Assembly: GCF_947494755.1 (NCBI RefSeq)
Contig: NZ_CANLVZ010000015.1
Span: forward strand, 1 to 64,000
Source: an uncultured Tateyamaria sp.
GTDB lineage: Bacteria > Pseudomonadota > Alphaproteobacteria > Rhodobacterales > Rhodobacteraceae
Reading direction: 5' to 3'
DNA: 64,000 nucleotides
A program made the translations under genes and the position numbers. The notes beneath the pieces are model-generated. The model did not search any database. It was given only the letters and a program-made list of their open reading frames with translations, and was not told the origin of the DNA. Positions 45,578 to 48,097 of the stretch are shown piece by piece. Numbering within the stretch: the first letter of the stretch is position 1; every line of letters starts with the position of its first letter.

Positions 45578-47134
45578 TCAGCTGACGTCCTTGTAGCTGA
45601 TTTCGGCCTTGTCGCTGCCGGATTTTTCGCGCCGGACCAGCAGGCGATTGAGCGCGTGCACATAAGCCCGCGCCGAGGCCACGACGGTGTCCGTGTCGGC
45701 AGATTGGCCGGTCACGATCCGCCCATCTTCCTCCATCCGCACCGATACGGTGGCTTGGGCGTCGGTGCCTTCGGTTACGGCGTGCACTTGATAAAGCTGC
45801 AGCCGTGCTTCGTGCGGGAACAGCGCCTTGACCGCGTTGAAGGTTGCATCGACCGGCCCGTCGCCCGTCTGTGTCGTCATCTGCCGCTCGCCATTGATCG
45901 TCATCACGAGGTCAGCGACTTGTGGGCCGTCCGTGCCGCAGCGCACGGCCAGTTTTTCGATCTTGAGCCGTTCGTCTTCGGGGTCGGTGCTGGTGCGCAT
46001 AAGCGCGATCAGATCGTCGTCAAAGATTTCCTTTTTGCGGTCGGCGAGCGCCTTGAAGCGGACAAACACGTCCTTTAGTTGGTTATCGCCCACTTCAAAG
46101 CCCAACTGTTCCAGCTTGTCGCGCAAGGCGGCACGGCCCGAATGCTTGCCCATCACGAGGTTGGTGGCCGACAGGCCCACATCCTCGGGGCGCATGATCT
46201 CGAAGGTCTCGGCGTTCTTGAGCATCCCGTCCTGGTGGATGCCGGATTCGTGGGCGAAGGCGTTCTTGCCCACGATGGCCTTGTTGAACTGCACCGGAAA
46301 GCCGCTGACGGTCGCAACACGGCGCGAGATATTCATGATCTTGGTCGAGTCGATGCCCGTTTGATAAGGCATGATGTCGTTGCGTACCTTCAGCGCCATC
46401 ACGACCTCTTCCAAGGCCGTGTTGCCTGCGCGTTCACCAAGCCCGTTGATGGTGCATTCGATCTGGCGCGCACCGGCCTCGACGGCGGCGAGGCTGTTGG
46501 CGGTCGCCATGCCGAGGTCGTTGTGGCAGTGGGTGGCAAAGATGATCTCGTCCGCGCCGGGCACGTTTTCCAGCAGCTTTCGAATCAAATCCGCGCTTTC
46601 GCGTGGGGCAGTGTAGCCGACCGTGTCGGGGATGTTGATCGTGGTCGCCCCCGCCTTGATCGCGATTTCGACCACCCGGTAGAGGTAGTCGAGTTCGGTG
46701 CGGGTCGCATCCATCGGCGACCACTGCACATTGTCGCAGAGGTTCCGCGCGTGGGTGACGGTCTGTTCGATCCGCTCGGCCATTTCATCCATGCTGAGGT
46801 TGGGGATGGCGCGGTGCAGCGGCGAGGTACCGATGAAAGTGTGGATGCGTGGTTGGCGGGCATGTTTGACCGCCTCAAAGCAGCGGTCGATGTCGCCGAT
46901 CTGGGCGCGGGCCAGCCCGCAGATCACCGAATTGGTCGCGTTTTTGGCGATGTCCGAGACAGCGTTGAAATCCCCCTCAGAGGCGATGGGAAACCCGGCC
47001 TCGATGATGTCGACGCCCATATCATCGAGCAGGCTCGCGATTTCGAGCTTTTCGGTGTGGGTCATCGTGGCACCCGGGGACTGTTCGCCGTCGCGGAGCG
47101 TTGTGTCGAAAATTACGACTTTATCTTGTGTCAT
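45578..47134 (-). CDS. leuA: 2-isopropylmalate synthase
   Basis: A 518-residue first committed enzyme of leucine synthesis, joining acetyl-CoA and 2-oxoisovalerate. The TIM-barrel domain has 'IFDTTLRDGEQSPGATMT', 'THCHNDLGMATANSLAAVEAGA' (metal ligands) and 'VGKNAFAHESGIHQDGML'. A C-terminal LeuA allosteric domain binds leucine for feedback inhibition. The start at 47134 follows AGAG. Upstream is a leucine-rich leader peptide and a 10-bp hairpin, which indicate control by leucine supply in addition to feedback. Confidence 0.97.
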   Translation of the reverse strand: MTQDKVVIFDTTLRDGEQSPGATMTHTEKLEIASLLDDMGVDIIEAGFPIASEGDFNAVSDIAKNATNSVICGLARAQIGDIDRCFEAVKHARQPRIHTFIGTSPLHRAIPNLSMDEMAERIEQTVTHARNLCDNVQWSPMDATRTELDYLYRVVEIAIKAGATTINIPDTVGYTAPRESADLIRKLLENVPGADEIIFATHCHNDLGMATANSLAAVEAGARQIECTINGLGERAGNTALEEVVMALKVRNDIMPYQTGIDSTKIMNISRRVATVSGFPVQFNKAIVGKNAFAHESGIHQDGMLKNAETFEIMRPEDVGLSATNLVMGKHSGRAALRDKLEQLGFEVGDNQLKDVFVRFKALADRKKEIFDDDLIALMRTSTDPEDERLKIEKLAVRCGTDGPQVADLVMTINGERQMTTQTGDGPVDATFNAVKALFPHEARLQLYQVHAVTEGTDAQATVSVRMEEDGRIVTGQSADTDTVVASARAYVHALNRLLVRREKSGSDKAEISYKDVS

Positions 47135-47184
47135 GGTGGTATCTCTTTTGATCTGATCCTGAAGCCTTTTGACGCGCGAGCGAT

Positions 47185-47221
47185 CCTCTGAGCGGGCGCG
47201 CCGACGGGCTGCGCTCAGAGG
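47185..47221 (-). promoter_or_regulatory. leuA leader hairpin
   Basis: A perfect 10-bp stem, CCTCTGAGCG (minus, 47221-47212) with CGCTCAGAGG (47194-47185), has a 17-nt loop. The 5' arm covers the end of the leader peptide gene: the final Leu codon and the UGA. The four tandem Leu codons lie 6-17 nt upstream. No long U-tract follows, so it may work with Rho, by an alternative stem, or on translation of leuA. Confidence 0.65.
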
Positions 47222-47295
47222 CGAATTAGGAGCAGTAGGCCACGCGAAATAGCACCGGAAAGATGCAGCGTTTGGATATGCGAGGCTCGTGTCAT
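47215..47295 (-). CDS. leuA leader peptide (LeuL-type)
   Basis: A complete 27-codon frame encodes 26 residues: it opens MTRASHIQTLHL, continues SGAISRG and ends LLLLIRL-stop. Seven of 26 residues are Leu, with four tandem Leu codons CTA CTG CTC CTA at 47238-47227. It is 80 bp upstream of leuA and overlaps the 5' arm of a strong hairpin. A TATAAT box 7 nt before the ATG implies a leaderless transcript, as in the trp leader of Sinorhizobium. No Shine-Dalgarno is present, consistent with that. Ribosome stalling at the Leu codons when leucyl-tRNA is short would alter leader folding. Confidence 0.75.
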   Translation of the reverse strand: MTRASHIQTLHLSGAISRGLLLLIRL

Positions 47296-47302
47296 GGCCC
47301 TA

Positions 47303-47330
47303 ATTATATCGCGGCTGTCTCAAATGGGAA
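47303..47330 (-). promoter_or_regulatory. leuA promoter
   Basis: A perfect TATAAT (47308-47303, minus) is preceded at 16 nt by TTCCCA (47330-47325), a four of six match to TTGACA. Transcription would begin 7-8 nt downstream, at or one base before the A of the leader peptide ATG. Confidence 0.65.
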
Positions 47331-47363
47331 GACTGAAATACGAGCGTTGAGGCGCGTGGCTGT

Positions 47364-47387
47364 CCGGCCCTCCGGGGGCGGTTTTTT
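47364..47387 (+). terminator. Terminator-like hairpin in the divergent leuA/SDR region
   Basis: On the + strand CCGGCCC (47364-47370) pairs with GGGGCGG (47375-47381) with one mismatch and is followed by TTTTTT (47382-47387). No + strand gene precedes it. It would end a short transcript antisense to the leuA leader or act as a leader terminator for the SDR gene. Confidence 0.5.
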
Positions 47388-47434
47388 GGCGAAATGAAGT
47401 TGATGGATCGTGAATGCCATCTAGTTTGGCTTTG

Positions 47435-48097
47435 ATGAGCAGTGTATTGATTATTGGGGCGTCGGGCGGCATTGGCTCCGCTTTGGCAGATGGGTTTGTT
47501 GCGCGGGGGTCGCAGGTGGATCGCCTGTCGCGTTCGGCTGACGGGTTTGATGTGACGGATGCCGGGTCGATTGCGCAGCATTTGTCGGGTCGGGGTCCGT
47601 ATGAGCGCGTGGTCGTTGCGACCGGCGCGTTGGAGATTGGCGGGGCGGCCCCTGAAAAAACCATCAAGGGGTTGGATGCGCGTGCGATGGCCGATCAGTT
47701 TGCGCTGAATGCCATCGGGCCTGCCTTGGTGCTATCCCATGCCCATGCGTTGTTGCACCGGGACCGGCCTTGCGTGTTTGCGGTACTGTCGGCCCGTGTC
47801 GGGTCGATTGGCGACAATCGAATAGGGGGCTGGATCAGTTATCGCAGTGCCAAAGCGGCGGTGAACCAGATCGTGCGCACTGCATCCATTGAGCTTGCCC
47901 GCACGCACAAGGAGGCTGCTGTTGTCGCCCTGCACCCGGGTACTGTGGAAACTCCGTTTACCGAGAAATATCTGAGCCGCCACCCGGCCGTGCCAGCATC
48001 CGAGGCCGCACAGAACCTGATTGGTGTGATGGACGGGCTTGGGCCCAGACAGACGGGCAGCTTCTTTGACTATTCCGGTGCGGAGGTGGCGTGGTGA
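47435..48097 (+). CDS. Short-chain dehydrogenase/reductase (C-factor-like)
   Basis: A 220-residue Rossmann-fold oxidoreductase. 'VLIIGASGGIGSALADGF' is the nucleotide-binding motif and 'YRSAKAAVNQIVRTASIEL' holds the catalytic YxxxK. 'VALHPGTVETPFTEKYL' is typical of C-factor-type SDRs. Substrate unknown. Start 47435 gives the standard N-terminus; an ATG 21 bp upstream is also in frame and neither has a clear ribosome site. Its stop overlaps the start of the photolyase gene, an SDR-photolyase pair seen in roseobacters. Confidence 0.87.
   Translation: MSSVLIIGASGGIGSALADGFVARGSQVDRLSRSADGFDVTDAGSIAQHLSGRGPYERVVVATGALEIGGAAPEKTIKGLDARAMADQFALNAIGPALVLSHAHALLHRDRPCVFAVLSARVGSIGDNRIGGWISYRSAKAAVNQIVRTASIELARTHKEAAVVALHPGTVETPFTEKYLSRHPAVPASEAAQNLIGVMDGLGPRQTGSFFDYSGAEVAW

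Follow-up and report, generated by a model that had tools for sequence, protein, structure and literature searches.

The closest described counterpart of the leader reported here is the LEU element of Actinobacteria. In the cited passages on it, an open reading frame with a run of Leu codons stands before leuA, the RNA forms a pseudoknot, and a base stem joins the Leu codons to the leuA Shine-Dalgarno (SD) sequence, with no clear terminator (PMC1262725). There, Seliverstov et al. (2005) doubted attenuation for the LEU element and favoured a protein-binding site; the same passages tell of mutations in the leuA leader of Streptomyces coelicolor that had some effect, inconsistent with classical attenuation, and of Leu codon mutations said to leave regulation uninfluenced (PMC1262725). 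For Streptomyces lividans, the cited part of a further study describes LeuL1, a peptide (MRFGLLLLSCRGEGL) encoded before leuA, transcribed leaderless and followed by no typical Rho-independent terminator (PMC8079986). Among Alphaproteobacteria, a 2005 survey of RNA motifs mentions an ilvB leader peptide, and the portion of its text consulted holds no hit for leucine or isopropylmalate (PMC1273637). Our literature search turned up no paper on a leuA leader in Alphaproteobacteria among the matches listed, and an earlier mention is possible.

Here we examine such a leader in the window, the whole stretch of 64,000 nt from an uncultured Tateyamaria sp. that was analysed. Judged by comparison with relatives, the leader probably attenuates translation of leuA under the control of a ribosome, a reading to which we assign a probability of roughly 0.8.

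The leuA leader in the window and its relatives

The leader is real. Its principal parts lie on the minus strand as a preliminary description had placed them: a TATAAT box with an ATG 7 nt on, a 26-residue peptide with seven Leu, four of them in tandem, and a last Leu codon and UGA that fall within a stem of 10/10 Watson-Crick pairs before leuA (Table 1). The leuA ATG is at 47134, 50 nt beyond this P1 stem, and we agree with the same description that the hairpin is followed by no U-tract. Two further helices can be drawn. P3 in the window is strong, with 7 bp, one being G-U (-14.1 kcal/mol), and P0 is imperfect. The 7 bp of P0, broken by one C.U mismatch, set CUG and UCCU from the Leu codons against AGGAUCAG at 47160-47153 (-7.0 kcal/mol), and the helix is weaker than that of many relatives. 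Folded alone, the window leader is no better than its dinucleotide shuffles (z = 0.41), and the evidence for it is thus comparative, not energetic. The leader is single-copy in the source genome, with one covariance-model match at E up to 10, and Tateyamaria sp. syn59, with a LeuA match of 94%, is its nearest relative bearing a name. On the plus strand, a terminator-like hairpin with a T-run occupies 47363-47379, between the leuA leader and a divergent short-chain dehydrogenase gene (47414-48097); as two such sites were found against 1.1 in shuffles, this hairpin may be due to chance.

Table 1. Positions in the window of leuA and of the elements of its leader
Feature	Sequence	Position	Strand	Remark
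-35-like hexamer	TTCCCA	47325..47330	-	spacer 16
-10 hexamer	TATAAT	47303..47308	-	7 nt 5' of peptide ATG; predicted leaderless start
Leader peptide ORF	MTRASHIQTLHLSGAISRGLLLLIRL, then stop	47215..47295	-	26 aa, 7 Leu
Tandem Leu codons	CUA CUG CUC CUA	47227..47238	-	proposed sensor
P0 5' strand (Leu codons)	CUGCUCCU	47228..47235	-	can pair with RNA 5' of leuA
P0 3' strand	AGGAUCAG	47153..47160	-	-26 to -19 of leuA
P1 5' arm	CCUCUGAGCG (CCTCTGAGCG in stem)	47212..47221	-	contains last Leu codon and UGA stop
P1 3' arm	CGCUCAGAGG (CGCTCAGAGG in stem)	47185..47194	-	pairs with P1 5' arm
P3 5' strand	GGCGCGC	47196..47202	-	inside P1 loop
P3 3' strand	GCGCGUC	47171..47177	-	3' of P1; pseudoknot, or alternative hairpin if P1 blocked
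Probable leuA Shine-Dalgarno	AGAG	47143..47146	-	-12 to -9
leuA, 2-isopropylmalate synthase		45578..47134	-	518 aa; HMGL-like, LeuA_dimer domains

Comparison among relatives brings out the peptide and the three helices of the leader, along with the promoter spacing and the rarity of terminators. The family sample comprised the leuA upstream regions of 145 of the 148 genomes with a match (149 were searched), three partial matches being left out, and further regions came from the best 80 of 591 named contigs. Of the 217 distinct regions left after removal of 8 duplicates, 190 belong to Rhodobacteraceae and close kin and 27 to other members of the class. In 196 of the 217 a Leu-rich peptide has its stop inside a stem, and 176 of these are family members. 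Fourteen of the 21 regions without such a call also belong to the family; 13 were searched with R1, a covariance model trained on 54 of the 154 alignable family leaders, and 11 were positive. A leader is thereby found in 187 of the 190 distinct family leuA regions, 176 by peptide and stem and 11 more by R1. The three family regions without a leader call are L080, L077 and L207, the first of which was left out of the R1 search because its contig ends 3 nt upstream.

A strict sequence motif is carried by 156 of 198 family loci (duplicates included), against 0.7 expected from first-order shuffles. In a class-level sample, where leuA of this type (E up to 1e-120) is present in 56/123 genomes, 31 of 57 upstream regions have the motif (0.4 expected), as do 19 of the 27 non-family regions (0.1 expected), both again relative to first-order shuffles. 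The strict motif misses some leaders, for example L084 and L096, which match R1 at 31.5 and 22.9 bits, and regions without it are, by eye, frequently AT-rich. R1 itself is narrow, reaching E 0.01 in only 29/289 genomes of the class sample and E 0.005 in 14/249 of a phylum sample, 13 of them family members and one from the same class. In five regions from other families (L274, L279, L288, L290 and L307) the peptide often ends LRL(R/S/T)(C/R)P, with CGACTTA replacing the pure Leu run, and the stop is kept within the stem. A 17.9-kb plasmid of Phaeobacter inhibens (L259, NZ_CP081282.1) carries leuA with a full leader, matching R1 at 90.7 bits.

The same relatives speak to where the transcript starts. 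When promoters are scored by their -35 and -10 hexamers alone, the top-scoring one stands 6-9 nt 5' of an in-frame ATG in 146/176 leaders, against 6/176 with shuffled upstream DNA. The -35 box in relatives is mostly TTTTCA or TTTCCA, not TTGACA, and the spacer is 16 nt in 122 of the 146. Across the family an SD sequence is present before leuA and none before the peptide; with an assumed anti-SD sequence, the region upstream of leuA gives a duplex energy of -3.46 kcal/mol, compared with -1.59 for shuffled sequence, and that upstream of the peptide one of -0.80 (n = 146). Because the promoter-to-ATG spacing is conserved, the transcript likely begins at or beside the peptide AUG, and the leaderless start predicted in the preliminary description from the window alone is likely for the relatives as well. 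The N-terminus of the peptide (47295-47272 in the window) is also kept among relatives, as MT...HI, with His6 in 90/146 and Ile7 in 100/146, a conservation that attenuation leaves unexplained.

Helices that link the Leu codons to the start of leuA

Alignment A1, of 54 leaders aligned without structure, provides evidence for three helices, and its covariation score was equalled by 0/500 shuffles. P1 is paired in 98.0% of cells, with an invariant UGAGCG at its core and both sides changed in 3/10 pairs; these compensatory changes give a positive answer to the search for stem covariation that the preliminary description had proposed. P3 joins GGCGCG in the P1 loop to a downstream CGCGCC, forming a pseudoknot, with 92.4% of cells paired and 2/6 pairs double-changed. 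P0 pairs the last Leu codons and the next codon with a site 5' of leuA; 74.9% of its cells are paired and 5/8 pairs double-changed, figures that are somewhat flattered, since A1 was hand-picked after P0 had been counted and is richer in P0 of at least 7 bp (30/54) than the remaining leaders (44/122). RNAalifold recovers P1 and the inner helix, and P0 was not found by it.

P0 was therefore tested further. Unrestricted duplex energies offered a modest contrast (own partners -14.9, shuffled -13.8, swapped -13.0), with 26/162 own partners in the top 5% and 36/162 in the worse half. As this contrast was weak and the positions scattered, we turned to contiguous Watson-Crick runs with swapped partners as the comparison. 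At least 7 contiguous pairs are formed with the leader's own partner in 74 of the 176 leaders, against 12.9% with foreign partners and 6.2% with shuffled ones; the other 102 have fewer than 7. The excess persists in the 122 leaders outside A1, where the corresponding background is 11.0% and the mean was reached by 0/300 permutations. Where 7 bp or more form (74 relatives), the partner lies at a median position of -26 to -19.

A finer test comes from the third base of a single codon. Codon -4, the fourth of the Leu run, encodes Leu in 176/176 leaders, and so the conservation of the Leu run, named earlier as a check, is borne out. It is CUU in 110 and CUA in 61, and these codons make up 7.6% and 0.9% of the Leu codons in leuA genes (74 loci). 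The downstream partner follows the codon: among CUU leaders UAAG occurs in 49, UUAG alone in 1 and both in 3, and among CUA leaders UUAG occurs in 30 versus UAAG in 1, with neither word in 57/110 CUU and 30/61 CUA leaders. The codon-partner control, taken from the upstream region, gave 10, 2, 3 and 3. A LeuA tree of 74 leaves, 43 of them informative, puts all five codon switches (5/5) on branches where the partner word switches too, and one partner-word change occurs without a codon change. Such co-switching ties the third base of the Leu codon to the RNA 5' of leuA, with the amino acid constant.

Read-out of the leader and competing explanations

The position of P0 relative to the gene start bears on what the leader does. 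Where leuA is the first gene, P0 has its median end at -19 and the SD its median start at -13, a gap of some 5-6 nt, so that the SD is not covered. The partner strand lies in the SD region in some of 50 non-family leaders, not in the window (-26 to -19): P0 of at least 7 bp falls within the last 20 nt 5' of leuA in 12/50, compared with 4% for swapped partners. A variant arrangement comes from a small cupin gene (Cupin_2) lying between leader and leuA at L022, L037, L047, L055, L153, L169, L172, L183 and L262; a cupin gene intervenes in 8 of the 11 family leaders rescued by R1. Of 10 loci examined, 9 allowed the cupin start to be placed, and a match was sought within 30 nt 5' of it. In these nine loci the longest match to the Leu codons lies at -20 to -5, over or beside the cupin SD (for example, CUAAGGAGA), with lengths of 9, 6, 6, 8, 9, 8, 9, 5 and 7 bp, the 5-bp match belonging to L153; the mean is 7.4 for own partners and 5.3 for swapped ones. 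In L195 the leader (49.5 bits) lies well 5' of leuA, and a cupin start could not be placed after it. The cupin variant points to a translational read-out, and P0 together with the loop pseudoknot, both missed in the preliminary description, likewise suggests one.

Folding with a simulated ribosome is consistent with such a read-out. With a ribosome seated on the final codon of the Leu run, the 5' strand of P0 and most of the 5' strand of P1 are no longer available. In calculations that cannot treat pseudoknots, the predicted unpaired probability of the P0 site then goes from 0.42 to 0.60 (higher in 133/153 leaders) and that of the SD, a small change, from 0.57 to 0.66 (higher in 107/153), and a ribosome placed 11 codons earlier hardly opens the SD (0.58).

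We infer from this comparison the start site, the stalling, the translational read-out and the response to leucine in the following scheme. Transcription would start at or next to the peptide AUG, as the spacing implies, so that a ribosome could start the peptide without an SD site. With charged tRNA-Leu ample, the ribosome would reach the UGA and depart; P1 would then close, its loop would pair with a strand further 3' (P3), and the Leu codons, now vacant, would pair with the RNA directly 5' of leuA (P0) and hold the start region shut. Under leucine shortage, the ribosome would stall on the Leu run and mask the 5' strands of P0 and P1, the GGCGCG/CGCGCC hairpin would remain, and the leuA start would be open. 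The scheme offers a concrete read-out for a leader without a terminator. It also retains the core of what had been proposed for the window, a leader peptide with ribosome-dependent attenuation of leuA, which the conserved Leu codons and the covarying stem support.

The best surviving alternative, though an unlikely one, is that the leader works on transcription through Rho: with leucine present, the released and untranslated leader would let Rho stop the polymerase before or early in leuA, and stalling would prevent this. An intrinsic terminator is not the rule, as a U-tract between P1 and leuA (at least 6 T in any 8 nt) is present in only 3/176 leaders; the stretch from P1 to leuA is T-poor and contains C, and blocked leuA translation alone could let Rho act. 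Against this, only 50 nt separate P1 from leuA in the window, and the conserved Leu-codon partner sits at the start region of whichever gene comes first, lying at the cupin SD where a cupin gene intervenes, a placement that a purely transcriptional switch does not need.

A site for a regulatory protein, of the kind that Seliverstov et al. (2005) favoured for the LEU element, with a Leu run of no significance to it, is a good deal less probable still. The invariant UGAGCG in the P1 core speaks for such a site, yet the core pairs covary, and codon -4 remains Leu in every leader although its third base varies (CUU/CUA); codons -7 and -6 are Leu in 144/176 and 166/176, with all four CUN codons used. 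Very improbable, too, is an action in trans of the peptide or leader RNA, in the manner of peTrpL/rnTrpL, with a minor effect in cis. It would give a role to the N-terminal MT...HI, which is kept beyond apparent need, but P0 ties the leader to the adjacent start site, and in the 13 class genomes with both an R1 match and a located leuA the match lies directly 5' of leuA (12) or of a cupin-leuA pair (1).

Classical attenuation at an intrinsic terminator, of the type of the E. coli leu leader (leuL), is hardly credible and was rejected despite the Leu-run peptide and perfect GC-rich hairpin, given the near-absence of U-tracts noted above, a window with no minus-strand terminator-like site in 46900-47600, and a leader that finds no Rfam match even at E 10.

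Relation to the LEU element and other leaders

A probable translational attenuator of this form invites comparison with the actinobacterial leaders at the level of sequence. R1, trained on Rhodobacteraceae only, was compared with six actinobacterial leuA regions and gives full-length matches in three. The Microbacterium match (24.6 bits) ends at the annotated leuA start; that in Nonomuraea (24.6 bits), in an unannotated record, ends at an in-frame AUG close to where the LeuA match begins; and that in Nocardia (20.1 bits), seen only with filters off, ends at the leuA ATG. The Tsukamurella leader scores 7.1 bits, which is chance level, and two Streptomyces plasmid copies yield no R1 match ending a leader at E 10. 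As for background, the best R1 matches off leaders are 17.1 bits (22 nt) and 16.0 bits, and across 98 kb from the records of Nonomuraea and Microbacterium the best is 11.9 bits. CTTAGCTGCC, a DNA word present in the leaders of Microbacterium and Nonomuraea, recurs in 15/225 alphaproteobacterial leuA upstream regions, and the peptide GLLLLSC is found in both phyla. Common ancestry of the alphaproteobacterial and actinobacterial leaders is possible on these similarities, with shared constraint as the alternative.

We would go one step further only tentatively, since the odds are somewhat against it: both phyla may share an ancient or horizontally spread translational attenuator in which the Leu codons being sensed (CUCCUU, for example) are themselves the anti-Shine-Dalgarno strand. 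If that is true, the same nucleotides gauge leucine and shut the gene, no terminator, SD site for the peptide or protein factor is required, and the question of how the LEU element works, which the 2005 paper did not resolve, would be settled. Independently of this, a regulatory RNA confined to Actinobacteria in the literature searched is extended to almost every leuA region sampled in one alphaproteobacterial family, and elsewhere in the class to about half or more of those sampled (31/57 and 19/27). The leader also illustrates a principle specific to the amino acid: the complement of a ribosome-binding site can be encoded by Leu codons, whose codon-sensing role could be separated from the pairing role by synonymous changes.

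Several known leaders share parts of this design. In Escherichia coli, the cited part of the source has a leader peptide, leuL (28 aa, 4 Leu), before leuABCD; attenuation ends transcription there, whereas the U-tract is absent here (PMC6123439). Sinorhizobium meliloti trpL offers an alphaproteobacterial leader peptide that starts at the first base of its transcript, but as presented in the cited passages it serves trp and has an attenuator that yields an sRNA, in contrast to the leuA leader, for which no terminator was found (PMC10117765). LeuL1 of Streptomyces lividans, so far as the excerpt cited at the outset describes it, resembles the present leader as a leuA leader peptide reported to be leaderless and terminator-less, and differs in its shorter peptide and its phylum. 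Mycobacteria reportedly have cysteine-responsive poly-Cys sORFs, in which a leaderless peptide with an amino-acid run controls a biosynthesis operon; the amino acid is another one, and the likeness drawn here is one of layout. The LEU element belongs to another phylum and another type of leuA and, going by the passages cited above, differs in two details: in Rhodobacteraceae the stop codon lies within P1, and where leuA comes first the base stem stops some 5-6 nt before the SD. With the element as those passages portray it, the leader shares the Leu-run ORF, the pseudoknot, the base stem between Leu codons and gene start, and a layout that does without a terminator.
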